Part shown: one piece after another, positions 260 to 14,788 of the stretch
How positions within the stretch are numbered: position 1 is the first letter of the stretch
Layout of the letters: every line of letters begins with the position of its first letter
Source: Cytobacillus firmus
Lineage (GTDB): Bacteria; Bacillota; Bacilli; Bacillales; Cytobacillaceae
Assembly (NCBI RefSeq): GCF_023657595.1
Contig: NZ_CP098323.1
Span: 2,008,001 to 2,072,000, forward strand
Length of the DNA stretch: 64,000 nt
Direction of reading: 5' to 3'
The notes under the pieces: model-generated
Seen by the model: only the letters and a program-made list of their open reading frames with translations
Told to the model about the DNA's origin: nothing
The model's database searches: none
Position numbers and translations under genes: made by a program

Positions 260-934
260 ATGGTTAACAATTGGACAGAAGATAATCTGATCTCAATACG
301 TGAGAGGGTTTATCTGCATATTAAGGATCTTATTTTAGACGGGGAATTCAAAGCGGGAGACCGGCTTGTGGAACGGGAACTTGCTGAACGGTTAAATATC
401 AGCAGGACGCCAATTCGCGAAGCGCTGTTCCGCCTGGAATCACAAGGGTTTGTAAAGACAGTTCCAAGAAAAGGCGTAATCGTTGCCGATATTTCTGAAA
501 AGGAAATTATTGAAGTGTTTACCATTTTATCATCCCTTGAAGTATTGGCTGCAAAATTGGCCGTCCAAAAGCTGGATGATGAAATGAAAAACAAGTTCAC
601 AGGCAGCATAAAGAAGGTACAGGAGTTTCTGAACAATCCTGAAGAGGATGCTGCTGAATTACATAGGGAGCTCAATCATCTCCTATATAGCTCCGCCAAA
701 AATGTGAAGCTTTATGAGATGCTGAGCGGATTGTCCGATTACATTCGAGCATTTGCCAAAATCGGGCATAAAAATCCCGGCAGGGCAAAGCAGTCCATGG
801 AGGAGCATTTAAAAATCATGGAAGCCATCGTTAATAAAGAGATGGAAATGGCTGAGTATCTGACCAAAATACATATTGAGAATTCAAAAAAAGCATATAT
901 TGAAGCGGTTCAGCAGAATGAAGACAAAAATTAA
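260..934 (+). CDS. GntR-family (FCD subfamily) transcriptional regulator 1
   Basis: This is a 224-residue DNA-binding regulator. The N-terminal winged helix-turn-helix (about residues 10-75) carries the GntR recognition segment RTPIREALFRLESQGFVKTV, and an alpha-helical FCD effector domain follows (about 85-215). The length is normal for the FadR/VanR type, which usually represses catabolic operons until a small organic acid binds. The ATG at 260 follows a GGGAAAGGG site. The recognition region is identical to that of the second GntR at 12887, so both should bind the same operator, the GTATAC palindrome repeated through 1.8-13.6 kb. The ligand is unknown. Confidence 0.93.
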   Translation: MVNNWTEDNLISIRERVYLHIKDLILDGEFKAGDRLVERELAERLNISRTPIREALFRLESQGFVKTVPRKGVIVADISEKEIIEVFTILSSLEVLAAKLAVQKLDDEMKNKFTGSIKKVQEFLNNPEEDAAELHRELNHLLYSSAKNVKLYEMLSGLSDYIRAFAKIGHKNPGRAKQSMEEHLKIMEAIVNKEMEMAEYLTKIHIENSKKAYIEAVQQNEDKN

Positions 935-960
935 GAAAGAGCCTCAGCTCTTTCTTAATT
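929..960. terminator. Bidirectional terminator between gntR1 and nadX
   Basis: A perfect 14-bp inverted repeat (AATTAAGAAAGAGC with loop CTCA) overlaps the stop codon of the GntR gene. It is followed by T-rich sequence and lies just before the end of the convergent aspartate dehydrogenase gene, so it can serve both strands. Confidence 0.85.
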
Positions 961-964
961 TTTA

Positions 965-1771
965 TTAAATGCCAATCACGAATGGCGAAGTTAAATTATT
1001 TAAAACCTTAGCCACACTCATGGCGACAATTGGACTGGATTTTGGATTTTCCTCATAAGGAACATTCGAAACGGATATCTCTACTTCGCCAAAATAACCC
1101 TTAGCCTTGATGGTATGTGTGTTTGATTGGATAGTCGGATCGGCATACACCTTCACCTTTGTATTTTCAAAGCCAATCCCTGCAAGGCTAAGGGCTGCTG
1201 AAACATTCACGCTCTGCGGAAACAGCCTGGATGACTCCCGTGCATTCCCTTCATAAATACAAAATGGCTCAGTCAGCATATTCAGATCCACTTTTTCTTC
1301 CGCAAACGTGCCTTTCCAGCTGCGCGGATGCTTTCTTGTAATTAAGGTAATATCTTCAATCTCACCCAATGCTCCCGCTGCAATCCGGTCCAGGCCGGCT
1401 ATTGCTGCAGAGGGAACAAAGATCTGCCGGTCATGCTGCTTGGCCGCAGCCTGCAGTTTTTCATAAAAACCGGTGTCTCCTAATGCTCCAACAGAAAGCA
1501 CCACAAGATGGCTTCCATTTGCCAGCACTTTCTCCCCGAACATATGCAATGCCTGATGACCTGCTGATTCTATGATAATATCTAAATCTCCATTAAAAAA
1601 TTCGTCTTCATCTGATGTAAGGGTAAATGCTTGTTTATCAGCATGCTCTGAACTTTTAGTGCTTCTAACAAGCACAGACTTTAACTCCACGTTGCCGGCA
1701 TGGCCGGCTTCTATTAATTCCGCTATGGTTTTCCCCAGCGTTCCATAGCCGATAATTCCAGCTTTAAACAT
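965..1771 (-). CDS. nadX: L-aspartate dehydrogenase (NadX / DUF108 family)
   Basis: The protein of about 268 residues begins with a Rossmann dinucleotide motif (GIIGYGTLGKTIAEL) and has the NadX-family core around SVGALGD and the C-terminal segment ENPKSSPIVAMSV. Family members interconvert aspartate and iminoaspartate/oxaloacetate plus ammonia with NAD(P). The open frame extends to a GTG at 1780, but that codon overlaps the ribosome site AAGGAG, so the ATG at 1771 is the likely start. The gene is convergent with gntR1, and a GTATAC operator lies 45 bases upstream at 1816. In this setting it more likely handles a catabolic amino or imino acid than NAD biosynthesis, because no nadA or nadB is nearby. 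That role is inference. Confidence 0.85.
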   Translation of the reverse strand: MFKAGIIGYGTLGKTIAELIEAGHAGNVELKSVLVRSTKSSEHADKQAFTLTSDEDEFFNGDLDIIIESAGHQALHMFGEKVLANGSHLVVLSVGALGDTGFYEKLQAAAKQHDRQIFVPSAAIAGLDRIAAGALGEIEDITLITRKHPRSWKGTFAEEKVDLNMLTEPFCIYEGNARESSRLFPQSVNVSAALSLAGIGFENTKVKVYADPTIQSNTHTIKAKGYFGEVEISVSNVPYEENPKSSPIVAMSVAKVLNNLTSPFVIGI

Positions 1772-1815
1772 ATTTATCACTCCTTCTCGGGATCACCCTT
1801 AAAAAACCGCATAAA

Positions 1816-1832
1816 TTTGGTATACGATATAC
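1816..1832. promoter_or_regulatory. GntR operator upstream of nadX
   Basis: The sequence TTTGGTATACGATATAC contains the GTATAC core with a left TTG arm. It lies 45 bases upstream of the nadX ATG and matches the T-N-GT-N-AC-N-A pattern known for FCD-type GntR regulators. Confidence 0.65.
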
Positions 1833-2122
1833 TTTGTGCAATTTTATTCTAGATTTTAACTTAAAAACATTAATAGAGCAATAGATTTTATAGAAAATAT
1901 TAAAACATCTAAATTTTCAAAATTATTTGCACAATAGCTATTTTTAGTGTTATTATAGTATACAAGTTTAAAATAGTGTAAAGAGGAGGTGGTGGTGGTC
2001 TCAAGTTCTTGACGATGTTTGCACATCTAAAGAGCATAAGAGATTGGTATAGCATGAAGAGAGCGGTGCACCAGCAGATAACCAAGTCATCCATGAAAAG
2101 CGCTTTTTTGTTTTTTGATGAA

Positions 2123-2143
2123 TTTGGTATACAATCCACCAAA
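2123..2143. promoter_or_regulatory. GntR operator upstream of the permease
   Basis: TTTGGTATACAAT followed by CCACCAAA gives a long imperfect dyad with the GTATAC core. It lies 158 bases before the permease at 2301. Confidence 0.65.
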
Positions 2144-2300
2144 TGCTGTATTCTTTTTGGTAAAAGTTACAAGTCCTTCTAGTGAAGCAAAATGCCGGGG
2201 TATTACATAGTCAGCCATAGAAAAACAGAAAACCTTGCAATCTGTCTTTTGCAATATTTTATAGGGGTTATTATTTATAACGAAAAACGGAGGGGAATAT

Positions 2301-3746
2301 ATGGAGTTAACATTTGCTCATTGGGTCTATGCAATTGTTACTGTGTCTGTCATCGCCACGATGCTTTTTAGAAGAGGCGTTGTCTTGCCGGTTATCATCG
2401 GAACTTTCTTTGTGGCAGTCATTTATAAAGGCAGCCTGATCGCTGGCTTTCAGGCTGTGTTTAACGCTAATCTCCTCGCAGCAAAAGAGTTATTCAGTAT
2501 ATTCTTAATCATTTCTCTCATGATCGCGCTACTCAATTCACTGAAGGATTTGGGAGCTGACAAAAGGCTTATTGGTCCGATTGAGAAGGTTATGGTGAAT
2601 GGGCATATTTCTTATTTAGTTTTAATGGTAACAACGTATGTGATTTCTCTCTTTTTCTGGCCAACACCTGCTGTCCCGCTTATCTGTGCCCTGCTTGTAC
2701 CCGCAGCAGTCAGAGCTGGGCTGCCTGTAATGACAGCAGCCATGGTTATTGTCATTGCCGGTCAGGGTATGGCGCTTTCCTCTGACTATATCATGCAGGT
2801 AGCACCGATGCTCAGTGCCAAAGCAGCTGGAATTGATAAGGCCCTGGTTGCGGATAAGACACTGGTTCTTTCCGTCATTACAGGTGTACTTGCATTGACC
2901 TATGTTTATGTGGCGCATAGAAAATCAATCGTGAAAAATGGGAACCATGACTCCTCGTTAAACCCTGAAGATGCTGCCTTTTTTGGTGTAGCGAATGAGC
3001 TTGCTGCTACGGCTGAAGAAAGTGCTGAAATCATTCAGAGAAAAAATACATGGGGCAAGGTTTTTGCTGTATTAGTGCCTTTATCGATGCTGGGTGTTAT
3101 GATTTATATGTTTTCAACCAAATTAACAGGCGGGTCAGGCTTTGAAGGAACAGATGGAGCTGCTTTTATTGGCGGTGTTGCGACTCTTTTATTGGTGCTT
3201 GCCACAGTGGCATTTAATCGCATCCATGCTTTAGATAAGATAAGCGAGCATTTAACGGAAGGCTTCGTGTTTGCCTTCAGGGCGATGGCTCCGGTTATTC
3301 CAATAGCAGGATTCTTCTTTATGGGAAGCTCAGACTTTACCGGCACCATTTTATCATTAGATGAAAGCGCTGCCAAACCTGCTTTTTTATTTGATATGAT
3401 ACAGGCAGGCCAGGCTTATATTCCTGAAAATGCGTTTATTGCTGGATTTGGCCTCTTAATTGTTGGTCTGATCACCGGCTTAGATGGCTCCGGTTTTTCC
3501 GGGCTGCCGTTAACAGGTGCCTTATCAGGTGCATTAGCAAGTGGAAGCCATATTGACCCTTCCACATTAGCAGCCATCGGACAAATGGGTGCCATCTGGG
3601 GTGGAGGAACGATTGTTGCCTGGTCTTCGCTTGTTGCAGTAGCAGGATTCCTGCAGATTTCACCGCTGGAGCTGGCCAGGAAAAACTTTATTCCAGTCGT
3701 CTCCAGTTTATTTATCGCAACCTTAATTGCCATATTAATCTGGTAA
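2301..3746 (+). CDS. Multi-pass permease, ion-transporter/GntP-like
   Basis: This 481-residue, very hydrophobic protein has about 12 predicted membrane segments and glycine-rich re-entrant stretches near the C-terminus (GLDGSGFSGLPL, GQMGAIWGGGT). The two-repeat layout with a polar central loop (about residues 215-250) resembles ion-transporter superfamily carriers such as GntP or DctM for organic acids, but I do not recognise the exact family. The ATG follows GGAGGGG. It is preceded by GTATAC operators and followed after 91 bases by a dehydrogenase gene. It probably imports the substrate of the surrounding catabolic regulon, which is inferred from context. Confidence 0.8.
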   Translation: MELTFAHWVYAIVTVSVIATMLFRRGVVLPVIIGTFFVAVIYKGSLIAGFQAVFNANLLAAKELFSIFLIISLMIALLNSLKDLGADKRLIGPIEKVMVNGHISYLVLMVTTYVISLFFWPTPAVPLICALLVPAAVRAGLPVMTAAMVIVIAGQGMALSSDYIMQVAPMLSAKAAGIDKALVADKTLVLSVITGVLALTYVYVAHRKSIVKNGNHDSSLNPEDAAFFGVANELAATAEESAEIIQRKNTWGKVFAVLVPLSMLGVMIYMFSTKLTGGSGFEGTDGAAFIGGVATLLLVLATVAFNRIHALDKISEHLTEGFVFAFRAMAPVIPIAGFFFMGSSDFTGTILSLDESAAKPAFLFDMIQAGQAYIPENAFIAGFGLLIVGLITGLDGSGFSGLPLTGALSGALASGSHIDPSTLAAIGQMGAIWGGGTIVAWSSLVAVAGFLQISPLELARKNFIPVVSSLFIATLIAILIW

Positions 3747-3767
3747 AATAGTAAGCTTGAAATAAAG

Positions 3768-3818
3768 AAGGCTATCCTGCAAAGTTAGTATAAACTAACT
3801 TAGGGGGTAGTCTTTTTT
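3768..3818 (+). terminator. Two-part stem terminator after the permease
   Basis: An outer 10-bp stem (AAGGCTATCC with GGGTAGTCTT, some G-U pairs) encloses an inner perfect 8-bp stem (AAGTTAGT / ACTAACTT) and ends in a T run at 3813-3818. It lies between the permease and the dehydrogenase, so it may attenuate read-through. Confidence 0.75.
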
Positions 3819-3837
3819 ATAAGAGAGGAGTGAGGAT

Positions 3838-4518
3838 TTGAAAATTGGATTAGCAGGTATAGGGAAATTAGGTTCAGCGATGATGACTCACTGGAATAAA
3901 TCAAATCTTCCAATTGGTATTTTTCATCCTGACAGCTCAAAGGCAGAACAATTTGCTGAAAGGTATCCTAACGCACATCCTTTAACTGATAACGAAATGA
4001 GACATATGGATATTATCCTGCTCGCATTGCCGGCTGGAAAAGTGATTTCTTTTATGGATAGCATAATTCCAGAGAATTCTTCGATTGTCTTCATTAATAT
4101 GGCGACCGCTCTTCCAACGAAAAAGATTAAAGAAAGGTTCCCTTCCTGTAAGGTGTGTGGGTTGAAATACATGGGGCATTCAAGAGACTTAATGGAGAAT
4201 GGAAAGGGATTATTTATTACTGAGGACCAACTCCCTGCTCCCATACAGGACCTGTTTAGACCAGTGGGGGAAATCATAAAAGACAGCGAAGAGAGAGTAG
4301 CAGAAATAAATAAACTGGCAACCTATTATGCTGTGAAAACGGCTGTTGAAATTGAGAATGATTTGACAGGCAAAGGATACGACCCAGCTTACATTAAAAG
4401 AGGTCTTACTTCCCTTGCACCGGAAGTCATTCGCTCTTACAGCGAAGGCACTTTGGGGCATTTTGCAAAAGAAATTGTGAAGGAAATACAGGAATCTATT
4501 AAAAAAGCTGCTGATTAA
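3838..4518 (+). CDS. NAD(P)-binding oxidoreductase, P5C-reductase/F420-reductase-like fold
   Basis: The 226-residue protein starts at a TTG after AGAGGAGTGAGG. It opens with a Rossmann motif (GLAGIGKLGSAMM) and the DIILLALPAGKV segment typical of the NADP-oxidoreductase coenzyme-F420/pyrroline-5-carboxylate-reductase-like clan. The C-terminal half is helical, and no specific substrate signature is visible. It is shorter than 6-phosphogluconate or hydroxyisobutyrate dehydrogenases, which suggests an imino-acid or small-acid reductase. It follows the permease in the same direction, beyond a terminator that may be leaky. The function within the regulon is inferred only from position. Confidence 0.75.
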   Translation: MKIGLAGIGKLGSAMMTHWNKSNLPIGIFHPDSSKAEQFAERYPNAHPLTDNEMRHMDIILLALPAGKVISFMDSIIPENSSIVFINMATALPTKKIKERFPSCKVCGLKYMGHSRDLMENGKGLFITEDQLPAPIQDLFRPVGEIIKDSEERVAEINKLATYYAVKTAVEIENDLTGKGYDPAYIKRGLTSLAPEVIRSYSEGTLGHFAKEIVKEIQESIKKAAD

Positions 4519-4533
4519 TTTTCAGCAGCTTTT
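4503..4533. terminator. Convergent terminator
   Basis: A perfect 12-bp stem AAAAGCTGCTGA / TCAGCAGCTTTT spans the end of the dehydrogenase gene and lies just before the end of the convergent permease, so it serves both genes. Confidence 0.85.
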
Positions 4534-4537
4534 CCTA

Positions 4538-5920
4538 TTAGAGCAATCTTTCCAGCATAAACAAATAGAACATTACGCAGGCAACATAAACTGCCGCAAA
4601 GGGAAGATTCCAGCTCGAAACTTTATAGGAATCGACTTTGATAATGTTAGACATGAGACCAAGAGTGGCATTATATGGGCCTACTAAGAAGGCGGAAACT
4701 GCGCCGGAAAGCATTGCGACTGTCAGAATATGAGGAGAAATACCGATGGCTTCCGGGTTTACTCCTTCAATCATCAAAGCCAGGGAAACGGCTGGATGGA
4801 GGCCCAGAAAGGCCAGCCCTAAAGGAATCAAAGGAAGTATGATCAGGAATATCTCGACTCCTGCCACACTTATAAAAGCTGCAATCCAGTCAAAAAGGAT
4901 TTCATTTGCCTTCGAAATATTAATCGCTGAGATAAAAAAGCCTGTTGATAAAAAGATAAAAAATTGATCCTTCATGCTCATCGCGAAGGAATTGAAATGG
5001 TCAGACAGCTGATGGCCAAATTCTTTTCCTTTACGTAAAAAAAGGGACCAGCTGAAAGCAAATGGAATGACGATCAGCGATACAAGAATTAAGAATGGCA
5101 ACGAAACTTGTGTCTCTGCAAAGGATACGAGGACATTAAATATTGCGATTGCCACCAGGATCTGAAAAACTCTGCCCGGACGACTGTCATTGGTCACTTC
5201 CAGGGCTGCAGCTGTTTCATGCACAGATTCATCTGTAGAGTGAGGGAGTTTCATTGGCTGGGACTGACGGGATCCAATAAACCAATCCATTGCTAATCCT
5301 AATATGCTCAGCGGAATGACATAAGGGAGGATGGATCCCCAGCTGACCCCCGTCATCGTTATCACAATCCCCACAATAGGCGTTACAGGCGCCCAAATTA
5401 AAGGCATTGCAAACCCTCTGGAAATAGCCCTGCTCATGAACCGCTCTTTATTCCTTACCGGAAAGCTCCCCAGAGCCGGCCTGATAGAATAATAAGTCAT
5501 GGGCAGGGTGGCAAGATTCATGAAAATGCTGAAGAAGTAAGAGATTCCAGAAGTCATCATATACAAATGACCAGATGTTTTTACACGTTTTTGAATGATG
5601 GCCTGGATGCCTTCCCCGTATCGTCCCAGTTTAACAGGAATCCCCAAAATGGGTATTAAAGTAAACATGGTAAGCAAATCAAGCATTGGTCCAAAAGCAA
5701 AAATATACTGCTGCCACTCAGAGCTGCTTGTCCATAGCAGGAATGCACCTAAAGTCAGGAAAACGCCCCCGAGAATCTGTACAAATTTCTTCGTAAGCCG
5801 GAATGTCAAAACGACGATGAAAAAACACAAGATAGAAAGGAGAGAATCAATATTCCACTGCGGAAGCAAGGTGGACAGCAAATATAAAGCAATCACTGTC
5901 AAAAATAAAACTCTTAGCAT
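4538..5920 (-). CDS. Multi-pass permease (unclassified, organic-ion transporter-like)
   Basis: This is a membrane protein of about 460 residues with 11-12 hydrophobic segments. Recognisable stretches include MPLIWAPVTPIVGIVITMTG and an alanine/glycine-rich SGAVSAFLVGPYNATLG near the end, typical of anion permeases with two inverted repeats. The open frame extends to an ATG at 5935, but the sequence GAGGGTGG inside it is an obvious ribosome site for the ATG at 5920. A GTATAC operator sits at 5956-5968, immediately upstream. A second permease in the same regulon suggests transport of a second substrate or export of an intermediate. The exact family is not recognised. Confidence 0.78.
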   Translation of the reverse strand: MLRVLFLTVIALYLLSTLLPQWNIDSLLSILCFFIVVLTFRLTKKFVQILGGVFLTLGAFLLWTSSSEWQQYIFAFGPMLDLLTMFTLIPILGIPVKLGRYGEGIQAIIQKRVKTSGHLYMMTSGISYFFSIFMNLATLPMTYYSIRPALGSFPVRNKERFMSRAISRGFAMPLIWAPVTPIVGIVITMTGVSWGSILPYVIPLSILGLAMDWFIGSRQSQPMKLPHSTDESVHETAAALEVTNDSRPGRVFQILVAIAIFNVLVSFAETQVSLPFLILVSLIVIPFAFSWSLFLRKGKEFGHQLSDHFNSFAMSMKDQFFIFLSTGFFISAINISKANEILFDWIAAFISVAGVEIFLIILPLIPLGLAFLGLHPAVSLALMIEGVNPEAIGISPHILTVAMLSGAVSAFLVGPYNATLGLMSNIIKVDSYKVSSWNLPFAAVYVACVMFYLFMLERLL

Positions 5921-5955
5921 ATCAGCCACCCTCATTTAATTGAATTTCAACATAA

Positions 5956-5968
5956 ATTGTATACCAAA
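5956..5968. promoter_or_regulatory. GntR operator, left arm of the divergent region
   Basis: ATTGTATACCAAA lies 36 bases upstream of the likely ATG of the leftward permease. Together with the site at 6027 it flanks the divergent promoters. Confidence 0.7.
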
Positions 5969-6026
5969 ATCCCAATTTTTATATAATTGTTCAAAAATCA
6001 GTCACAAATATTCTTATATTTTGGTA

Positions 6027-6072
6027 TTTGGTATACAATTGTATTGTAAATCTTAAAAATTCATCTTATAAT
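6027..6072 (+). promoter_or_regulatory. GntR operator plus sigma-A promoter for the 28-aa gene
   Basis: The operator TTTGGTATACAATT (6027-6040) sits just upstream of a clear promoter, TTGTAA at 6044-6049 and TATAAT at 6067-6072 with a 17-base spacer. Transcription would start near 6080 and run into the microprotein gene at 6111. Confidence 0.7.
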
Positions 6073-6110
6073 AATGATAACAGGTAAGAGAAAAAAAGGA
6101 GGCTGCCCCG

Positions 6111-6197
6111 ATGTTCCATTTTCTTTTTGGATCCAAATATGCAATTGAGAAAACTGAAAGAAAATTAGCCCGTTTAAGAAGAACATTAAAATTCTAG
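6111..6197 (+). CDS. 28-residue basic microprotein
   Basis: A short gene encodes MFHFLFGSKYAIEK followed by TERKLARLRRTLKF. It has every element of an expressed gene: a 17-spaced TTGTAA/TATAAT promoter, the ribosome site AAAGGAGG ending 8 bases before the ATG, and a terminator hairpin 5 bases after the stop. The peptide has an aromatic, hydrophobic N-terminus and a strongly basic, probably helical C-terminus. That could mean membrane-surface or nucleic-acid binding, but no family is recognised. The adjoining GTATAC operator places it in the same regulon as the neighbouring permeases. No function is assigned. Confidence 0.65.
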   Translation: MFHFLFGSKYAIEKTERKLARLRRTLKF

Positions 6198-6201
6198 TTA
6201 T

Positions 6202-6230
6202 GCCGCCATCCTTTGGCGGTTTTTTCTTTT
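6202..6230 (+). terminator. Terminator of the 28-aa gene
   Basis: CCGCC-ATCCTTT-GGCGG followed by TTTTTTCTTTT, right after the stop codon. Confidence 0.85.
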
Positions 6231-6254
6231 ATAAAATTATTATTTGTGAACAGC

Positions 6255-6290
6255 AAACCCGGAAGAAGAGCGGCTTCTCCCGGGTTTTAA
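6255..6290. terminator. Additional strong hairpin
   Basis: AAACCCGG and CCGGGTTT enclose AGAAG/CTTCT, giving a long imperfect stem with TTTT on the right. No gene ends directly before it on the plus strand, so it may mark the border of the repeat element that follows. Confidence 0.55.
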
Positions 6291-6310
6291 GAAGTTTTTA
6301 TCGCAGACTA

Positions 6311-6573
6311 ACGGCCAGTAAGACCCCCACATCAAGACTCAGATGAATCAAGGGAGGATAAGTGGGGGTCAAACTGCCCGTAAAGGCCCGAAAAGAAGAA
6401 CAAAGACTAAAAACGCCACATCCTCCCAAAAGCTGCCGCTTTCGGTCGTGCGATGTATCGCTGCCGTAGCTTTCCTTGTCCTGTGGCAACGTCTTTGTGA
6501 CCCACTTCCTCCCAAAAGCTGTCGCATTTGGTCGTGCGATGCTCATGCTGACGAAGCCTTTCTTGTCCTGTGG
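6311..6573. repeat. Non-coding repeat element with internal direct and inverted repeats
   Basis: GC-richer than its surroundings and not coding. It contains an inverted repeat (6311-6330 and 6362-6380, perfect over GACCCCCAC/GTGGGGGTC) and two direct copies of a roughly 70-base unit at 6417-6486 and 6503-6573. Both copies share CTCCCAAAAGCTG, GGTCGTGCGATG and CTTGTCCTGTGG. The 82-codon frame on the minus strand here is only a by-product. I recall similar sequence scattered through Bacillaceae genomes, but I cannot confirm that here. Confidence 0.6.
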
Positions 6574-6585
6574 GCCTCAACTAAC

Positions 6586-6618
6586 AATCAGCAGGGAGAA
6601 AAGCACTCCCCACTGATT
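6586..6618 (-). terminator. Hairpin after the 111-aa gene
   Basis: AATCAG/CTGATT outer arms with AGGGAG/CTCCCC inner arms form an imperfect stem just beyond the stop of the leftward gene. The T content after it on that strand is modest. Confidence 0.55.
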
Positions 6619-6629
6619 GAAGTTTCACT

Positions 6630-6965: not shown

Positions 6966-7050
6966 TTAAAACACTCCTTTTTTTATTTTGATATTTTCAG
7001 TGTTTTTCAATATGTAATTAGGCAGCATACCTCCCTTTTTTTGTTGGAAC

Positions 7051-7791: not shown

Positions 7792-7812
7792 TTTTTTATT
7801 TTTATTATTTAG

Positions 7813-7828: not shown

Positions 7829-7853
7829 GAAGAATAAGCGGGGTAATAAGAAA

Positions 7854-8624
7854 ATGAATTGTTATGAGCTTACCAAGATGACATGGAAGGAAGTCGAGAA
7901 ATCCTTAGAAAATGCAGAGTTTGCTATAATTCCGGTCGGAGCACATGAGCAGCATGGGCCTCATATGGCGGAAAGCTGTGATGCAGTGCTCGCGGAAAGA
8001 ATGGCATTTAAACTGGGGCAAAGAATGTTTCCTTATGCTATTGTGACACCAACAGTTAATATGGGTGTTTCCGAGCATCACATTCATTTTCCCGGAACCA
8101 TCACCCTTCAGCCGTCTACTTTGATTGCTGTTCTGAAAGATATGGTCTCTTCACTGAAACAGCATGGCATCAAGAAGTTTCTGTTTTTGAATTCCCATGG
8201 CGGAAACCAATCTACACTGAATCTCGCAGCAATGACTATCACGAAGGAATTAGAAGTAGAAGTCTACTATGCAAAGACTACTGCCTCTGCCAGGGAATCT
8301 ATCGGAAAATATGTTAAATCCCCTCTATTTGGCCACAGCTGCGAAAGGGAGGTATCTGAAGCTCTGTATCTGGCTCCGGAACTGGTCAGAAAGGACCTTT
8401 TGGAAAAAGGAGAAATCAAGCAAGGCGGCAGATGGGAAAAGCTCCGTCCGGGGAAGGCTGTCCAGGGATTTTATTTTTACGAAGAAATGACTGGAAACGG
8501 CTGTATAGGTGATGCCCGGCAAGGGAGCAGGGAAATCGGAGAGCAAATTGTAGAGGAAGCTTTGGATCATCTTACTGAGGAGCTTTCTGAACTGCTTGAT
8601 TTGAAAGAAGAACTTCCTTATTAA
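7854..8624 (+). CDS. Creatininase-family amidohydrolase
   Basis: The protein of about 256 residues has the creatininase-fold metal-ligand pattern: an early E in IIPVGAHEQHGPHMA, D in the SCDAV segment, H in the NSHGGN motif, and E in the GHSCEREVSEAL segment. Family members hydrolyse cyclic amides or formamides (creatinine, mycofactocin peptides, formamidopyrimidines) with two divalent metals. The GTG at 7812 lies inside an operator, so ATG 7854 is preferred, although its ribosome site (GCGGGG) is weak. In this cluster it could open a lactam or amide ring of the substrate, but that is inference. Confidence 0.82.
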   Translation: MNCYELTKMTWKEVEKSLENAEFAIIPVGAHEQHGPHMAESCDAVLAERMAFKLGQRMFPYAIVTPTVNMGVSEHHIHFPGTITLQPSTLIAVLKDMVSSLKQHGIKKFLFLNSHGGNQSTLNLAAMTITKELEVEVYYAKTTASARESIGKYVKSPLFGHSCEREVSEALYLAPELVRKDLLEKGEIKQGGRWEKLRPGKAVQGFYFYEEMTGNGCIGDARQGSREIGEQIVEEALDHLTEELSELLDLKEELPY

Positions 8625-8714
8625 TTCTAACAAACTAGCGGCGAGAAAAAATAATCTTTAAAAAATTCTAAAAATTGTGTTTACAATTAAAAAAGAATAG
8701 GTTATGATTTCATT

Positions 8715-8727
8715 AAGGTATACCAAA
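8715..8727. promoter_or_regulatory. GntR operator 1 of the diiron oxidase gene
   Basis: AAGGTATACCAAA contains the fully symmetric core GGTATACC and lies 120 bases before the ATG at 8848. Confidence 0.65.
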
Positions 8728-8786
8728 GACCAAAAACAAGATTAAATAGGGCTGAAAATTAGCAACCTATTATTTTTTAAAAGAAG

Positions 8787-8807
8787 TTTTGGTATACAAA
8801 ATATCAA
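8787..8807. promoter_or_regulatory. GntR operator 2 of the diiron oxidase gene
   Basis: TTTTGGTATACAAAATATC followed by AAA is one of the best matches in the regulon. With the site at 8715 it gives the oxidase gene a double operator about 70 bases apart. Confidence 0.7.
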
Positions 8808-8847
8808 ATGCCAATAGGCTACATAAATTTCGAGGAGGAGTTTACAC

Positions 8848-9579
8848 ATGCCAGAATTATTATCTAAAGATGAATTTCGCAAAGAACTAGAGGAAGCCAT
8901 TAAAGGAAACCACAGTCAGAAAGCTCCATTCACTGTAGCTTGGGCTGAAGGAAAACTGGAAAGAAAGCATTTTGCGAGATGGGCTGAAAATCATTACCAC
9001 TATGTAGGGCCTTTTGCTGACTACTTAGCGTACATCTATCACAACACTCCAACCGATCCGAAATTCGAAGCAGCAAAAGATTTCACTCTTCAAAATATGT
9101 ATGAAGAAGAAATTGCGGCCGACCGTCATACAGACTTGCTGATTCGTTTTGCAGAGGCATGCGGAACAACTCGCGAACGCGTAATTAATCCAGAAAACAT
9201 GGCACCGACTACACTAGGTCTTCAAAGCTGGTGCTATGCAGTTGCTGCCCGTGAAAACTTCGTTGTAGCTACAGCAGCTCTTGTTGTCGGCTTAGAGTCA
9301 CAGGTACCGGACATTTATCGAAAGCAGACTCCTGCTCTTCGTGCCCAATACGGATTTACAGATGAAGAAATCGAATTCTTCGATCTTCATATCGTATCCG
9401 ATGAAATCCATGGAGAACGCGGCTATAAGATTGTTTTAGATCATGCTGACACTCCTGAATTGCAGCAGCGCTGTCTGGAAGTCGTTCGCACAGGTGCGAA
9501 GATGCGCCGCATGTACATGGATGGCCTATGGAGAGAATATCTTGAACAGGATCTTGGCTCTTTAGTAGAAGCAAAATAA
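8848..9579 (+). CDS. Heme-oxygenase-like diiron oxidase (HDO; PqqC/TenA/CADD fold)
   Basis: The 243-residue all-helical protein belongs to the PqqC/TenA-like superfamily. It keeps a full set of putative diiron ligands: E87 and H94 (EEIAADRH), E150 (VVGLESQV), and H181, D185 and H188 (HIVSDEIH). The E-x6-H and H-x3-D-x2-H spacings equal those I recall for Chlamydia CADD, so a metal-dependent oxygenase is more likely than a PQQ synthase or thiaminase. HDOs perform N-oxygenation, decarboxylation or C-C fragmentation of amino or fatty acids. Two GTATAC operators precede it, an excellent ribosome site (GAGGAGGAG) is present, and an aldehyde dehydrogenase follows. The substrate is unknown. Confidence 0.85.
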   Translation: MPELLSKDEFRKELEEAIKGNHSQKAPFTVAWAEGKLERKHFARWAENHYHYVGPFADYLAYIYHNTPTDPKFEAAKDFTLQNMYEEEIAADRHTDLLIRFAEACGTTRERVINPENMAPTTLGLQSWCYAVAARENFVVATAALVVGLESQVPDIYRKQTPALRAQYGFTDEEIEFFDLHIVSDEIHGERGYKIVLDHADTPELQQRCLEVVRTGAKMRRMYMDGLWREYLEQDLGSLVEAK

Positions 9580-9701
9580 TATCTATTATCCAGGCCGTCA
9601 CACTAAATCTTGTCATCCGAGGTCTATGTGGCGGCCCTTTCTATAACCAGAGAATTTGGCGCAGTAAAGGGAGAAATAAACAGAGAGTAAGGTGATTTCA
9701 T

Positions 9702-11165
9702 TTGATTACAACAAAAGTAGAAACCTTCCATAATTATATTAATGGTGAATGGCAGGAATCCGGGAGCCAAAAGAAGTTTTATAGTGTTAACCCGGCAAAT
9801 ACTGAAGATGTCGTCGGCGTTTTTCAGGCATCCAATGAAACAGATGTCAAGCTGGCGATTGAAGCCGCGAAAGAAGCATTCCCGGGCTGGGCAAAGGCAG
9901 CGCCATCCAAGCGTGCAGCCATTTTAAACAAAGCAGCAGCATACCTTGAAGAAAATGCCGCCCAATTTGCAGAAGAACTGACAAGAGAAGAAGGGAAGCA
10001 TGTCAGTGATGCAAAAAATGAAGTGCTCCGTTCCGCACAGACGCTTCGTTATTATGCGGTTGAGGGACAAAGCTTCACAGGTGAAACCTTCCCTAATGAT
10101 GATCCCAAAATGAGAGTTTCAACGGAAAGAGAACCGCTCGGCGTTGTAAGTGTCATAACGCCATGGAACTTTCCAATCTCCATTGCGGCGAGAAAAATTG
10201 CTCCAGCATTAATTACAGGGAACACAGTTGTGTTCAAACCTTCATCAGATACCCCTCTAATTGCTGTCCGGCTTGTAGAAGCACTGCACGAGGCAGGTAT
10301 ACCAAAAGGGGTCTTAAACTTTGTTACAGGGAGGGCTTCCGATGTAGGTGATTTATTAGTCACCCACCCTGCCGTCAAGGCTGTTACATTCACAGGTTCA
10401 ACAGCTGCAGGTGAGGACATCCACAGCAAGAGCTCTTTCACCACCCGTACTCAAATGGAGCTTGGCGGCAAAAACCCGCTTTTAGTTATGGAAGATGCTG
10501 ACCTTGATCTGGCGGCAACATTAACAGTAAATGGCGGGTTTTCTTTAACAGGCCAAGCCTGCACTGGAACAAGCAGAGTAATTGTAATGAAGGAAGTAAA
10601 GGAAGCATTTGTAAACAAATTGATTGAAAAAACGAGTGCCCTTAAAATTGGCAGCGGCTTTGAAGAAGGAGTTAAAATTGGTCCGCTGGCAAATGAAAAG
10701 CAGCTGAAAAACGTTCTAAAGTATATTGAGGTTGGAAAAGAAGACGGTGCAGACCTTGTATATGGCGGTGAACAGCTGACTGAAGGCCAATATGAAAAAG
10801 GATATTTTGTTCAGCCTGCCATTTTTACGAATGTCAAACCGAATCACCGTATTGCCAGGGAAGAGATTTTTGGACCGGTTATTGCCGTGATCGAGGCAGA
10901 TACATATGAAGAAGCCATTGCGGTTGCAAATGACGTTGACTACGGATTATCTGCTTCCATCGTGACAAATAACTTAAAAATAGCCAGCCAGTTTACTAAA
11001 GACATCCAGGCAGGCACGGTAAAAGTGAACCGGACTACAACAGGCAACTTAATCAATGCTCCGTTTGGCGGATTAAAGCAATCAAGCACGGCTACTTTCC
11101 GGGAATCAGGAAGGGTTGGCCTGGAGTTTTTCACTCAAGTAAAAACCGTTTATATCGGCTATTAA
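9702..11165 (+). CDS. NAD(P)-dependent aldehyde dehydrogenase
   Basis: The 487-residue enzyme starts at a TTG after AAGGTGAT. It has the usual ALDH landmarks: TPWNFPI near residue 150, the coenzyme loop FTGSTAAG, the general base E253 in MELGGKNP and the catalytic cysteine C287 in GQACTGTSR, then EEIFGPV. The sequence around ELGGKNP and GQACTGTSR is closest, from memory, to the alpha-ketoglutarate-semialdehyde type (YcbD-like). It lies 122 bases after the diiron oxidase and 19 bases before the GlcG-like gene, so it probably oxidises an aldehyde formed by the pathway. The exact substrate is inference. Confidence 0.9.
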   Translation: MITTKVETFHNYINGEWQESGSQKKFYSVNPANTEDVVGVFQASNETDVKLAIEAAKEAFPGWAKAAPSKRAAILNKAAAYLEENAAQFAEELTREEGKHVSDAKNEVLRSAQTLRYYAVEGQSFTGETFPNDDPKMRVSTEREPLGVVSVITPWNFPISIAARKIAPALITGNTVVFKPSSDTPLIAVRLVEALHEAGIPKGVLNFVTGRASDVGDLLVTHPAVKAVTFTGSTAAGEDIHSKSSFTTRTQMELGGKNPLLVMEDADLDLAATLTVNGGFSLTGQACTGTSRVIVMKEVKEAFVNKLIEKTSALKIGSGFEEGVKIGPLANEKQLKNVLKYIEVGKEDGADLVYGGEQLTEGQYEKGYFVQPAIFTNVKPNHRIAREEIFGPVIAVIEADTYEEAIAVANDVDYGLSASIVTNNLKIASQFTKDIQAGTVKVNRTTTGNLINAPFGGLKQSSTATFRESGRVGLEFFTQVKTVYIGY

Positions 11166-11184
11166 AACTAAAGGAGAATGAAAG

Positions 11185-11664
11185 ATGAAAACAGCTTTAA
11201 AGCTTGAACTGGAAGAAGCAAAATTGATGATTGAAGCAGCAAAGGAAAAGTCTGCTGAAATCAATGTGTTTGAGACAATTGCGATTGTCGATGACGGCGG
11301 AAGTGTCATTGCCCTGGAACGCATGAATGGAGCAAGAATCACTGGCCCGGAAATTGCGATTGCTAAGGCATACACTGCCGCCGGCCACAAACGCTCCACC
11401 CACCTATTCAATAAAGAACCGAACGGGCCTGCCCTGCCTGGCAATGAGGCATTTGGCATTCAGCATATGCTTAATGGCAAATTTGCTGTGTTTGTCGGAG
11501 GGTTCCCAATTGTGGTAAATGGTGAGGTTGTTGGAGGAATCGGCATCAGCGGAGGAAACGGCGAGCAGGATACCGCTGTTGGGACTGCTGCACTAAAAGC
11601 CCTTCAAACTTACCTGGAAAAAGACGGCTATGAAGTCGTAACCGAAGCAGATATTAAAAAATAA
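11185..11664 (+). CDS. GlcG/HbpS-family protein (DUF336)
   Basis: This 159-residue protein has the family's GlcG/HbpS pattern: an N-terminal helix ending in VFETIAIVDDGG, the ARITGPEIAIAKAYTAA segment, and the glycine-rich GGFPIVVNGEVVGGIGISGG near the C-terminus. Members are found in glycolate, propanediol and aromatic-catabolism loci, and one branch binds heme. It has no signal peptide, so it acts in the cytoplasm. It lies 19 bases after the aldehyde dehydrogenase and is almost certainly cotranscribed with it. Its biochemical role is not established. Confidence 0.88.
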   Translation: MKTALKLELEEAKLMIEAAKEKSAEINVFETIAIVDDGGSVIALERMNGARITGPEIAIAKAYTAAGHKRSTHLFNKEPNGPALPGNEAFGIQHMLNGKFAVFVGGFPIVVNGEVVGGIGISGGNGEQDTAVGTAALKALQTYLEKDGYEVVTEADIKK

Positions 11665-11671
11665 TAGAAAG

Positions 11672-11709
11672 GGACCTCATTCGTTTTTAATAGTAGCGGA
11701 ATGAGGTCC
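11672..11709 (+). terminator. Stem-loop after the GlcG-like gene
   Basis: GGACCTCATTC (11672-11682) and GAATGAGGTCC (11699-11709) form a perfect 11-bp stem. The T run is short (TTCTTC), so some read-through into the ChrA pair is possible. Confidence 0.7.
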
Positions 11710-11747
11710 TTCTTCAGTCAGAAGCACCTAAAAAAGGGGAGGATCGC

Positions 11748-12344
11748 ATGAAGCCTTATCTTGAATTGGCGGTTGGATTTGCACGTACCGGTGTGACAGG
11801 GTATGGAGGAGGTCCCTCGACAATACCACTGATCGAATTTGAAGCAGTCAAGAAATATAAGTGGATGACGGAGGAGGAATTCGGAGAGACTCTGGCTCTA
11901 GCCAATACTTTGCCCGGACCGATTGCAACAAAGATGGCTGCCTATATCGGCTATAAAGTCAAAGGCAGTTTGGGTGCTACTGTAGCCATCCTTACGCATA
12001 TACTTCCTTCCATTATTGCCATGCTAGCCTTGCTGGGCGTTTTATACTCTTTCCGCCAGTCCCCAATTGTCAGTGGAATGGTGCAGGGAGTGACACCAGT
12101 GATCGGTTTTATGCTGGCAGAGATGGCCTATCGTTTTTACCAGAAAGGCAGCCAGGGGTTAGGATTGCCAAAAAACCTTATATTGGCCGCAGTGTCATTA
12201 ATTTTTGTGCAATTCTTGGAATGGCATCCCGGTATTTTAATTGCAATTATCTTAAGTACTGCTTTTTATATTGCCCACCGGAAAGAACAGGCGAATAAAA
12301 AGGTAGCTGAAGAGTACATGCCAGTAAGGGAGAAAAGTTCATGA
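11748..12344 (+). CDS. Half-size ChrA-type (CHR family) transporter, subunit A
   Basis: This 198-residue membrane protein covers one CHR domain, recognised by GYGGGPSTIPLIEFEAV, the WMTEEEFGETLALANTLPGP motif and IATKMAAYIGYKVKG. Half-size CHR proteins normally work as unequal pairs that substitute for full-length ChrA. The charged C-terminal tail (about residues 180-198) is cytoplasmic. It overlaps the next gene by an ATGA. CHR proteins are annotated as chromate transporters, but in this cluster the pair could move an organic anion. That suggestion rests on context only. Confidence 0.88.
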   Translation: MKPYLELAVGFARTGVTGYGGGPSTIPLIEFEAVKKYKWMTEEEFGETLALANTLPGPIATKMAAYIGYKVKGSLGATVAILTHILPSIIAMLALLGVLYSFRQSPIVSGMVQGVTPVIGFMLAEMAYRFYQKGSQGLGLPKNLILAAVSLIFVQFLEWHPGILIAIILSTAFYIAHRKEQANKKVAEEYMPVREKSS

Positions 12345-12871
12345 TCTATTGGGATATCTTTTGGGCATTTTTTATAGCGAATTTATTGGGTTACGGAGGG
12401 GGACCCGCAACAATTCCCCTCATACAAATTGAAGTAGTCAATAACAATGGCTGGATGACACTCGCTGAATTTGGGGATGTTCTCGCCATAGCCAATGCGC
12501 TGCCGGGTCCTATAGCAACCAAAATGGCCGGATTTATCGGTTATGAACTAGGCGGAGTATTGGGTGCGGCGGTGGCTTTAGCCGCAACCATCCTGCCATC
12601 CGCTTTGGCAGTGATTGTGCTGTTTAAGTTTGTGAATTTATTTAAAGATTCTCCTAAAGTGAAATTAATGACCAAATCCGTACAGCCGGTCATTGCGGTC
12701 CTTCTGGCTGTCATGGCCTATCAGTTCTTTATGTCAGCCTTCGAAAAAAGCGGAATGCTGCACCTTATACTTCTTGCAGCCGTCAGCTATTTAACATTAA
12801 TCAAATTCAAGGTTCATCCTTCTCTTGTTATATTCGGAGCCTTATTTTATGGAGGGATCTTTTTATCTTAA
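12341..12871 (+). CDS. Half-size ChrA-type transporter, subunit B
   Basis: The 176-residue partner of the preceding gene repeats the CHR signature (GYGGGPATIPLIQIEVV, WMTLAEFGDVLAIANALPGP, IATKMAGFIGYELGG). Start and stop codons overlap as ATGA, indicating translational coupling and a two-subunit transporter. The stop lies 15 bases before the second GntR gene, which therefore probably belongs to the same transcript. Confidence 0.88.
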   Translation: MIYWDIFWAFFIANLLGYGGGPATIPLIQIEVVNNNGWMTLAEFGDVLAIANALPGPIATKMAGFIGYELGGVLGAAVALAATILPSALAVIVLFKFVNLFKDSPKVKLMTKSVQPVIAVLLAVMAYQFFMSAFEKSGMLHLILLAAVSYLTLIKFKVHPSLVIFGALFYGGIFLS

Positions 12872-12886
12872 ACAGGCGGTGAAACA

Positions 12887-13573
12887 ATGGAAAAAATATG
12901 GGGGGAAAATAACTTAATATCTATACGCGAACATGCGTATTTGTATCTGAAAAAACTTATTTTAGAAGGAGAATACCAGGCAGGGGACAGACTGGTAGAA
13001 AGAGAACTTGCAGCCAAACTAAACATCAGCCGCACACCGATTAGGGAGGCGTTGTTCAGGCTGGAATCCCAGGGCTTCGTGAAAACAGTTCCCAGAAAAG
13101 GGGTGGTTATCTCCAATATCTCAGAGGATGAAGTATTGGAGGTATTTACGATTCTCGCTTCACTGGAAGTGCTGGCAGTAAAACTGGCAGCACAAAGAAT
13201 GGATACAGGTACACAACAAGAACTCGATCTCAAGATTAAGGAACTAATAGAGCTAAGTGAACAGGATGAAGAAAACTTCAATTCCGAACATATCCAGATG
13301 AACAGGCTGATTAATAAGGCATCCAAAAGCCCAAAGCTATATGAAATTCTATCAGGTTTGATTGATTTCATTCACATGGCTGCCAATATGGGATATGAAA
13401 CACCTGGGAGAAGAAAGGACTCATTAAAAGAACATATCGATATTATGAAAGCACTTCGCGATAAAGATGCCGAAATAGCGGAATACCTGATGAGGATTCA
13501 TATTGAAAACTCAAAGAAGGCCTATATGGCATATATTAACCGAATTAAAAAGAGAGGGACTGCTAAAAACTAA
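12887..13573 (+). CDS. GntR-family (FCD subfamily) transcriptional regulator 2
   Basis: The 228-residue paralog of the regulator at 260 has the same layout: a winged helix domain (about residues 10-75) then an FCD domain. A 28-residue block over the recognition helix and wing is identical between the two, while the FCD domains differ clearly. They should read the same operator but may respond to different ligands. The ATG follows AGGCGG and lies 15 bases after the ChrA subunit B gene. Two regulators with one DNA specificity suggest either stepwise induction by substrate and intermediate, or a duplicated operon pair. Confidence 0.93.
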   Translation: MEKIWGENNLISIREHAYLYLKKLILEGEYQAGDRLVERELAAKLNISRTPIREALFRLESQGFVKTVPRKGVVISNISEDEVLEVFTILASLEVLAVKLAAQRMDTGTQQELDLKIKELIELSEQDEENFNSEHIQMNRLINKASKSPKLYEILSGLIDFIHMAANMGYETPGRRKDSLKEHIDIMKALRDKDAEIAEYLMRIHIENSKKAYMAYINRIKKRGTAKN

Positions 13574-13620
13574 TAAATAATTAAAAGCTTAGTATTGTCT
13601 GAATATTATATTTATGGTAT

Positions 13621-13632
13621 ATTGTATACCAA
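13621..13632. promoter_or_regulatory. GntR operator upstream of ferredoxin 2
   Basis: ATTGTATACCAA lies 37 bases before the ferredoxin ATG, with an additional ATGGTAT half-site at 13614-13620. It matches the other regulon sites well. Confidence 0.7.
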
Positions 13633-13668
13633 GAACCAAGAAACGAAATCACAGGGAGGAATTCATTC

Positions 13669-14019
13669 ATGCCAAACATCCATTTTGTCAACAGCAGCAA
13701 AACTCTGGAAGTGCCTGAGGATTCTAATATATTAAGAATGTCGCTCCGCTATGATGGTGATCTGCCAAATCGCTGCGGCGGCGGTATTTGCGGCACATGT
13801 GTTTTTAAAACAGAAGAAGGGTCCGAATATCTGGACAACGTGAAAATCCAGGAAAGAAGAAAGCTGGGAGAAGAGTGGCTGGAAAAAGGCTACCGTTTAG
13901 GATGCCAGACTTTTGTAACAAAAGGGGATGTTACCATTTCCTGGGATGATAAAGTGACAGATCAGGTTAAGAAGAGAAAACCGGATAAATTGAAGCAAGC
14001 CGTCTCAACAGGAAAATGA
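13669..14019 (+). CDS. 2Fe-2S ferredoxin 2
   Basis: The 116-residue ferredoxin has cluster ligands C36-x4-C41-x2-C44 and C79 (NRCGGGICGTC, then RLGCQ). Its glycine-rich binding loop distinguishes it from ferredoxin 1. The C-terminus is lysine-rich, as in ferredoxin 1. It has its own operator immediately upstream. A second ferredoxin in the regulon suggests either two oxygenases or separate input and output partners of the diiron oxidase. No dedicated ferredoxin reductase is present in the window. Confidence 0.9.
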   Translation: MPNIHFVNSSKTLEVPEDSNILRMSLRYDGDLPNRCGGGICGTCVFKTEEGSEYLDNVKIQERRKLGEEWLEKGYRLGCQTFVTKGDVTISWDDKVTDQVKKRKPDKLKQAVSTGK

Positions 14020-14032
14020 GATTCCGAAGAAT

Positions 14033-14077
14033 GCATTCTGTAATGAAGGAACTTAGCTTCTGCACGTTACAGAATGC
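14033..14077. terminator. Long stem-loop between ferredoxin 2 and the 65-aa gene
   Basis: A perfect 11-bp inverted repeat (GCATTCTGTAA / TTACAGAATGC) encloses an inner GAAG/CTTC pair. No T run follows, so it may be an RNA-processing or stability element instead of a terminator. Confidence 0.5.
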
Positions 14078-14114
14078 AAAATAAATTTCCAATAATATAG
14101 AAGAAGGTGAAATT

Positions 14115-14312
14115 ATGTGGGTTTGCAGCACTCATTTAAAAGAAGCCATGCAAATATTAAAAACACCTCATATTCGAAAAGCTCCTTATGAAATTAAATG
14201 CTCACTTTGTGAAAATCAAGCTTTCGCCAAAGTGTATTATACTCACCGCTCATTTAAATTCACTAAACAACTTTATTCTTCATTAAAACAAAGTGTTTCC
14301 CAGGAGGCATAG
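14115..14312 (+). CDS. Small CxxC protein, 65 aa
   Basis: A small basic protein with a possible metal-binding knuckle: C4 near the N-terminus and CSLC in the middle (IKCSLCENQAFAKVYY). The ribosome site AAGAAGGTG precedes the ATG, and the stop lies 2 bases before the RidA gene, so it is in an operon with it. I do not recognise the family. The pattern fits the small zinc-ribbon-like proteins common in Bacillus genomes. Confidence 0.65.
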   Translation: MWVCSTHLKEAMQILKTPHIRKAPYEIKCSLCENQAFAKVYYTHRSFKFTKQLYSSLKQSVSQEA

Positions 14313-14314
14313 CG

Positions 14315-14788
14315 ATGGAAGGGGTAAAAAAGGGAATTGAAGAAAGACTGGAAGAGCTGAATATCCAGCTCCCTGAATTGACTGATATCCGAATGCCTTT
14401 TGAACCGGGCGTTATCTCAGGAAAGATTGTCTATTTATCCGGGCAAACACCCAGAGTCAATGGTCTTCAAAAGTATACCGGAATTGTCGGGGCAGGCATT
14501 TCGATCGAAGAAGCAAAGGATGCGGCACGAATTTGTACGCTGAATTTGCTGGCAGCCCTTAAAGGAATAATTGGAGATTTAAATAAAGTGAAAAGAATCA
14601 TCAAAATGGATGGATATGTTGCCTCAACAAGTGACTTTAAATATCATCCAATCGTCATAAATACATCATCAGAACTGCTGCATGATATTTTCGGCAAGGA
14701 AAATGGACACGCACGTAAAGCAGTGGGATTAGCTTCACTGCCAGGCGGGGCTCCTGTAGAAATTGAAATGATTGTTGAAATAGAATAA
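14315..14788 (+). CDS. RidA/YjgF-family imine/enamine hydrolase
   Basis: This 157-residue protein of the RidA/YjgF/UK114 superfamily has an N-terminal extension of about 20 residues, VYLSGQTPRV in the core, the conserved HARKAVGLASLPGG segment with the carboxylate-binding arginine, and VEIEMIVEIE at the end. RidA proteins hydrolyse reactive imines and enamines, and some relatives deaminate aminomuconate in aromatic pathways. Two bases separate it from the 65-aa gene. Its place at the end of an amine-linked cluster fits detoxification of imines released by the oxidase or dehydrogenase steps. Confidence 0.88.
   Translation: MEGVKKGIEERLEELNIQLPELTDIRMPFEPGVISGKIVYLSGQTPRVNGLQKYTGIVGAGISIEEAKDAARICTLNLLAALKGIIGDLNKVKRIIKMDGYVASTSDFKYHPIVINTSSELLHDIFGKENGHARKAVGLASLPGGAPVEIEMIVEIE

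Follow-up and report, generated by a model that had tools for sequence, protein, structure and literature searches.

What a heme-oxygenase-fold diiron oxidase (HDO) candidate does among transport, hydrolase and ferredoxin genes is the question raised by a gene cluster of Cytobacillus firmus, located at positions 260–14788 of the 64-kb stretch of the 4.98-Mb genome analysed here (the window). A preliminary description had proposed an HDO-centred unit governed by two regulators, together with a five-step catabolic scheme. Judged from sequence, the cluster genes form one regulon under a shared putative operator, and they appear to belong to a cross-phylum module built around the HDO and equipped with a dedicated electron supply. 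The module is most likely catabolic, and with moderate confidence we read it as a GntR/FCD regulon for the O2-dependent breakdown of a small nitrogen-containing carboxylate.

All of the genes named in the preliminary description are present; it had overlooked one, o6630, on the minus strand. The cluster contains the following genes:

260–934, plus strand: GntR/FCD regulator 1 (gntR1); PF00392 71.1 bits, PF07729 60.1 bits
965–1780 (likely start 1771), minus strand: aspartate dehydrogenase (AspDH); NF009828 243.2 bits, above the cut-off of 177
2301–3746, plus strand: perm1, a permease of the ion-transporter-superfamily fold (TRAP-M/DASS/ArsB-like)
3838–4518, plus strand: Rossmann oxidoreductase; PF03807 31.6 bits
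4538–5935, minus strand: perm2, the second permease, with two operators upstream
6630–6965, minus strand: o6630, an orphan protein of 111 aa
7459–7791, plus strand: fdx1, a plant-type [2Fe-2S] ferredoxin; PF00111 35.9 bits; C39-x4-C44-x2-C47...C81
7812–8624 (likely start ATG 7854), plus strand: creatininase-family hydrolase; PF02633 213.8 bits
8848–9579, plus strand: HDO; PF14518 120.3 bits, above the cut-off of 28.9
9702–11165, plus strand: aldehyde dehydrogenase (ALDH); PF00171 567 bits
11185–11664, plus strand: GlcG/HbpS (DUF336) protein; PF03928 122.1 bits
11748–12344, plus strand: ChrB half-transporter; PF02417 141.3 bits; NCBIfam ChrB 231.6 bits, below the cut-off of 250
12341–12871, plus strand: ChrA half-transporter; PF02417 146.1 bits; NCBIfam ChrA 215.9 bits, below the cut-off of 250
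12887–13573, plus strand: GntR/FCD regulator 2 (gntR2); PF00392 68.4 bits, PF07729 67.8 bits
13669–14019, plus strand: fdx2, a plant-type [2Fe-2S] ferredoxin; PF00111 43.8 bits; C36, C41, C44, C79
14315–14788, plus strand: RidA/YjgF-family protein, a variable member of the set; PF14588 67.1 bits, above the cut-off of 35

The two regulators are identical at 128 of 224 aligned residues, and the motif C-x4-C-x2-C-xn-C is present in 85 of the 85 copies of each ferredoxin family extracted by tblastn. Neither permease matched a Pfam or NCBIfam family. The best NCBIfam profile for the ALDH, that of alpha-ketoglutaric semialdehyde dehydrogenase (NF042993), gave 594.8 bits against a cut-off of 770, and the RidA-family protein did not reach the RidA equivalog TIGR00004 (28.1 bits; cut-off 106.25).

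Whether these genes are controlled together was addressed through k-mers common to the intergenic stretches of the cluster, which yielded a palindrome with the core GTATAC. The pattern TKGTATACMA occurs seven times in the window, all within 2125–13631, where 0.16 copies are expected, and no shuffled sequence reached seven. Over the whole genome TTGGTATACAA has seven copies, six of them in the cluster, and the reversed pattern has two. The seven sites in the window are:

2125–2134: operator TGGTATACAA before perm1
5957–5966: proximal operator before perm2
6029–6038: distal operator before perm2
7052–7061: operator between o6630 and fdx1
7813–7822: operator before the likely hydrolase start
8790–8799: operator about 50 bp before the HDO gene
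13622–13631: operator about 37 bp before fdx2

A near-operator with one mismatch lies by AspDH at 1817–1827. Because an operator copy occupies 7813–7822, ATG 7854 is the probable start of the hydrolase. A 34-nt inverted repeat (5955–6040) has the two perm2 operators as its ends; paired perm2 operators are kept 62–73 bp apart in many relatives, a spacing that hints at cooperative binding or looping.

The operator was then sought in relatives. A scan of genome contigs for the HDO gave 465 relatives; the 80 best loci among these were retained. Counts for Firmicutes, in gene content and operators alike, refer to 71 loci (L001–L071), 57 of them with full flanks; these are closely akin, so the counts are not independent events. 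Locus L073 and the loci of other phyla were tallied separately, and L084–L098, L108 and L109, being duplicates or non-cluster loci, were omitted from one locus comparison. In the Firmicutes loci there are 460 operator sites against 5.6 expected from a first-order model applied per locus. An operator lies within 400 bp upstream of the HDO gene in all 71, and likewise before o6630 (69/69), perm2 (62/68), fdx2 (60/69), fdx1 (58/69), AspDH (37/52), the hydrolase (37/71) and perm1 (33/70). Such sites are infrequent before gntR1 (7/43), gntR2 (3/57) and RidA (4/34). Their near-absence before ALDH (1/71) and GlcG (0/71) is expected if both are transcribed from the HDO promoter. For 15 Burkholderiales loci a first-order model per locus likewise predicts 9.4 GTATAC sites, and 73 are present, with a site upstream of the HDO gene in 14 loci; the exception, L103, has zero GTATAC sites and no GntR gene was found there. 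In five actinomycete loci, where a PucR regulator replaces GntR, there is one GTATAC site against 1.5 expected from that model. Thus a missing GntR regulator accompanies a missing operator. The co-regulated, two-regulator unit of the preliminary description is borne out at sequence level, both by the seven window operators and by the site before every Firmicutes HDO gene.

Is the gene set itself conserved? Beside the HDO in the 71 Firmicutes loci we found the creatininase-family hydrolase, ALDH and GlcG (71 each), perm1 and at least one GntR regulator (70 each), fdx1, fdx2 and o6630 (69 each), perm2 (68), ChrA and ChrB (65 each), AspDH (52), RidA (34; 28 of the 57 loci with full flanks) and the Rossmann gene (33). 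Of the genes just past the cluster's downstream end in the window, vwa is found in one of the 71 loci, mbl in three, and hyi and garR in five each; retention of the set therefore stands well above chance. Gene order shifts by genus, perm1 lying by AspDH in Cytobacillus and between the hydrolase and HDO genes in Gottfriedia, and the set stays. The best-conserved member is the HDO, with a median identity to the window copy of 92.6% (GlcG 86.1%, perm2 62.7%), and its protein is 100% identical in eight records, including C. firmus and C. oceanisediminis. A single set of 150 Bacillales genomes, searched for all three proteins, has the HDO and the hydrolase (both at E ≤ 1e-40) and o6630 (E ≤ 1e-6) in 13 genomes each, and these are the same 13; in one of them, G738, the HDO consists of two partial matches at contig starts. 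The small orphan o6630 is thus among the tightest members of the set. The refuting check set by the preliminary description, whether HDO, creatininase and RidA co-occur, comes out halfway in its favour: in Bacillales the first two keep together, and RidA departs from them.

Side by side with the conserved set, six loci (L059, L060, L064, L066, L067 and L068) carry an extra flavoprotein family, which in L066 is thioredoxin-reductase-like and under the cut-off. Four of the six have a small ferredoxin-like protein too, and L064, L067 and L068 have a malic-enzyme-like gene (profile checked in L068). These additions possibly mean an additional source of electrons and a C4 product.

What kind of enzyme is the HDO? 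In an alignment of 26 of the 93 HDO copies, the metal-ligand positions (a glutamate within 86–88, H94, E150, H181, D185 and H188) are invariant in all 26, giving the pattern of three histidines and three carboxylates that makes the protein a candidate non-heme diiron oxidase. By sequence, the nearest proteins of solved structure are 4-aminobenzoate synthases and CADD, and in the alignment with CADD the metal-ligand positions correspond. The self-sacrificing p-aminobenzoate synthase consumes its own Tyr27 and Lys152 (PMC11965152); these positions are T29 and Q160 in the window HDO, which by that test is therefore no such synthase. It reached 93.3 bits with the CADD profile TIGR04305 (cut-off 200) and 46.7 bits with the PqqC profile TIGR02111 (cut-off 240). 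A p-aminobenzoate (CADD-like) or PqqC-type cofactor pathway would agree with these best relatives, with the TIGR04305 score and with the aligned metal ligands that CADD and NePabS share with our protein. The missing sacrificial Tyr/Lys pair, the unreached cut-offs, a catabolic-looking neighbourhood and the lack of any folate or PQQ family among the scanned cluster members make it so improbable as to be nearly negligible.

A survey counts at least 19,778 likely HDO-family members (PMC13185094), most of them of unknown function (PMC13232832). Proteins of this type, with the 3-His/3-carboxylate site, carry out reactions that include C–C cleavage, N-oxygenation and desaturation (PMC13108848), and one of them, DtpC, shields Acinetobacter during drying (PMC13232832). 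As presented in the accessible text of PMC13108848, PMC13185094, PMC13232832 and PMC11965152, the described HDOs are biosynthetic apart from the one in stress protection, and none is catabolic. Could the present HDO likewise make a small natural product or signal? The mostly biosynthetic character of the characterised HDOs (PMC13108848, PMC13232832) speaks for this. Among the scanned cluster members, though, there is no ATP-grasp, nonribosomal peptide synthetase, polyketide synthase or carrier-protein family, and an FCD or PucR regulator, a permease, amidohydrolases, ALDH and AspDH are the furniture of catabolism. We regard a biosynthetic cluster as very improbable.

The loci outside Firmicutes indicate which parts belong to the core. 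Genes in these distant loci were called with a simple gene finder, and some misses were recovered by tblastn (e.g. the HDO in L069, a Firmicutes locus). In Burkholderiales the HDO is 66–73% identical to that of the window, and tblastn found GlcG and both plant-type ferredoxins in 15 of the 15 loci, ALDH and perm1 in 14 and o6630 in nine, or 12 once the gene calls in L075, L081 and L100 are added; ALDH, perm1 and a GntR gene are all retained in the loci other than L103. Here fdx1, o6630 and fdx2 form a single tight unit. Of 12 gene-called loci, 11 have a BenC-like Fer2/FAD/NAD reductase family (profile checked for L081) and nine an ornithine-cyclodeaminase (OCD) family (profiles checked for L081 and L074). 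In the actinomycete loci the HDO is 67–74% identical and is accompanied by GlcG, ALDH and RidA in five of five and by perm1 in four. Plant-type ferredoxins were not found in these five, each of which has two Rieske ferredoxins, an FAD reductase and a gamma-glutamyltranspeptidase (GGT) (profiles checked for L104). The core kept across three phyla thus consists of the HDO, GlcG/DUF336, ALDH, a permease and two [2Fe-2S] carriers, in agreement with the earlier idea that an oxidase fed by ferredoxin precedes an aldehyde dehydrogenase. The carriers change by lineage (a plant-type pair, a plant-type pair with a BenC-like reductase, or a Rieske pair with an FAD reductase), and the C–N hydrolases and imine enzymes vary as well.

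Occurrence of the HDO is patchy: 7 of 300 sampled genomes of the order Burkholderiales and 5 of 394 sampled genomes of the actinomycete class have it, the centre genomes included. In a tree of 37 non-redundant HDO sequences, Pseudomonadota and actinomycetes are each kept together (100/100 in both cases). Bacillota requires two changes (66% of the bootstrap trees need one), so the tree leaves the choice between a single origin and transfer undecided. In L076 (Cupriavidus basilensis) one cluster has two divergent HDO copies, at 5900–6631 (minus strand) and 10001–10732, and two perm1 copies.

How would such an oxidase obtain electrons? In mangotoxin synthesis the HDO MboA has the flavin/Fe2S2 reductase MboB as its redox partner (PMC13185094), a precedent for an HDO fed by an iron-sulfur protein; the BenC-like reductase of the Burkholderiales clusters is similar. 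That system differs in being biosynthetic, and the accessible text of PMC13185094 and PMC13108848 mentions no two-ferredoxin set, permease, ALDH, DUF336 protein or GntR regulator with it. Ferredoxins and reductases of the same kinds serve the Rieske and soluble diiron multicomponent oxygenases (BenC and HcaC types), whereas the oxygenase here is an HDO and the cluster genes of the window include no Rieske alpha subunit. We tentatively suggest that the module may encode a multicomponent oxygenase of the HDO type, equivalent to those enzymes but with the heme-oxygenase fold, composed of the HDO, a dedicated [2Fe-2S] pair and, in the plant-type version, o6630 as a small accessory protein of a new kind. 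Set against the accessible text of PMC13108848, PMC13185094, PMC13232832 and PMC11965152, it would be the first HDO that serves to feed on a compound instead of making one, occurring in three phyla and with a conserved GTATAC operator in two of them.

The orphan o6630 matched no Pfam or NCBIfam family above its cut-off, and its window copy is without cysteine. The predicted model (predicted local distance difference test (pLDDT) score 83.1) has seven strands and one long helix, and structure comparison with it gave no convincing match. It is more likely a partner of the plant-type ferredoxins than of the HDO alone, since it accompanies these ferredoxins and was not found in the loci that have Rieske carriers in their stead. 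Consistent with such a partnership, L069 and L071 have neither fdx1 nor o6630; L073 and L103, with both ferredoxins and o6630 undetected, speak against it. Between perm2 and o6630 lies a dispersed repeat (6298–6629), the region 6240–6629 having 91 matches in the same genome. An Rfam Bacillaceae-1 RNA match falls inside it at 6391–6525, and the small open reading frames listed within the repeat are probably not genes.

The GlcG protein may offer a hint as to the product. Its relatives in the PDB include EfgA, a formaldehyde sensor with the pocket residues K57, S114 and D121 (PMC8153426), matched by K61, S122 and D129 in GlcG. All 92 cluster copies retain the serine and aspartate, and all 92 retain the lysine (84 by the strict motif and eight by inspection). 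EfgA itself is without a conserved gene context in the accessible text of PMC8153426, whereas the present DUF336 protein stands beside the HDO in 91 of 91 loci (71 + 15 + 5). The reaction of BesC, which belongs to the C–C-cleaving HDOs that form olefins, releases ammonia and formaldehyde (PMC13108848), and chemistry of this type would account for an aldehyde binder in the cluster. BesC-type enzymes resemble ours in fold family and ligand pattern and differ in serving natural-product biosynthesis.

What the permease carries is suggested by its fold. The predicted model of perm1 (pLDDT 85.7) has the fold common to TRAP-M, DASS and ArsB carriers, most of which move organic or inorganic anions, and this suggests that a carboxylate is the substrate. 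Relatives of perm1 occur in 99 of the 150 Bacillales genomes (E ≤ 1e-60); it is therefore part of a widespread family of transporters, for which neither Pfam nor NCBIfam yielded a model. Eleven perm1 copies outside the HDO cluster (L110–L120) have unrelated neighbours.

The hydrolase exceeds the PF02633 cut-off, and the metal motifs E-x-H-G and N-x-H-G-G-N are each present in 56 of 72 copies, the 16 misses of E-x-H-G being partial extractions of 2–42 aa. As a true creatininase it fell short of the equivalog TIGR04448 (98.4 bits; cut-off 235). By tblastn, creatininase was not found in the 15 Burkholderiales or the five actinomycete loci. Other hydrolases stand near the HDO there: an alpha/beta hydrolase with esterase-like profiles in the Caballeronia cluster, amidase-signature enzymes in L072, L077 and L105, an isochorismatase-type enzyme in L106, and GGT in L104 and L076. 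The L105 amidase and the L106 isochorismatase-type enzyme adjoin a perm1 copy. The simplest reading is that these varied C–N hydrolases would be non-orthologous replacements for one hydrolysis step, before or after the HDO. In L109 there is also a partial acetamidase/formamidase-family match (5692–6627, minus strand), which lies outside the window, some 3.4 kb to the left of its first position.

The preliminary description had specified a route in which a creatininase-type enzyme opens a cyclic amide, the HDO acts on the resulting amino acid, ALDH takes the aldehyde, RidA the imine, and AspDH comes last. All of its enzymes are encoded in the cluster, and the HDO and creatininase share their 13 Bacillales genomes, yet RidA occurs in fewer than half of the Firmicutes loci, none of the 20 loci from other phyla yielded a creatininase, and the hydrolase could equally follow the HDO, e.g. 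on an N-formyl or amide product. That exact pathway is decidedly improbable. Rut-type ring-cleavage pathways likewise unite an oxygenase, an amidohydrolase, RidA and a permease in a single operon; presumably they differ in that the RutA flavin monooxygenase is absent here and the HDO, ferredoxins and DUF336 protein stand in its place.

The more general catabolic scheme that we favour would run as follows, its substrate class, step order, electron route, transport direction and catabolic nature being inferred. The permease perm1 probably imports the compound, and a dedicated C–N hydrolase, here of the creatininase family, would open it or release it. As the terminal oxygenase, the HDO would oxidise or fragment the compound with electrons from two dedicated [2Fe-2S] carriers, o6630 serving as an accessory of the plant-type pair. 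ALDH would oxidise the resulting aldehyde, GlcG/DUF336 may bind or sense a small reactive aldehyde, and a nitrogen-bearing imine or amino product would pass to AspDH, or in other lineages to OCD or RidA. Of the preliminary description, then, co-regulation and the HDO-centred idea stand; RidA being confined to 34 of the 71 loci, its full scheme is partly supported, and the detailed five steps do not follow.

Several observations weigh against our reading. RidA and the Rossmann gene are each present in fewer than half of the Firmicutes loci. EfgA-type pocket residues are, according to the accessible text of PMC8153426, largely conserved throughout DUF336, and so are no proof that GlcG binds formaldehyde. 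No o6630 was found in the five actinomycete loci, nor in L069, L071, L073 and L103. The C–N hydrolases vary by lineage and some (the amidase and isochorismatase types) lie 4–7 kb from the HDO, so we infer their link to it. ChrA and ChrB are without a clear role in the scheme. In the VIA comparison perm1 matches the arsenite exporter ArsB best, and the exporter family MtrF/YdaH is listed too, so import is a guess.

The last two points lend themselves to detoxification, in which the HDO and its carriers would degrade a soil compound that is toxic, the aldehyde would be dealt with by DUF336 and ALDH, and perm1, ChrA/ChrB or a major facilitator superfamily (MFS) protein would export. ChrB and ChrA accompany the HDO in 65 of 71 Firmicutes loci, an EmrB-like MFS gene (201.6 bits; below the cut-off of 230.2) adjoins the OCD gene in Caballeronia, and DtpC is itself a protective HDO (PMC13232832). 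On the other hand, tblastn found no ChrA/ChrB in the 15 Burkholderiales and five actinomycete loci, most of the top Foldseek matches to perm1 are TRAP- or DASS-type uptake carriers, and AspDH, OCD and the C–N hydrolases resemble assimilation. On balance we consider detoxification unlikely.

If the catabolic regulon is real, growth would be linked to an HDO, and HDO catabolism would become directly testable in a culturable bacillus. The operator would be readable and the electron chain defined, and the enzymes around the HDO would differ from one lineage to another. Through such a regulon one could also approach what DUF336/GlcG proteins do, and what is done by a transporter family that has neither a Pfam nor an NCBIfam model.

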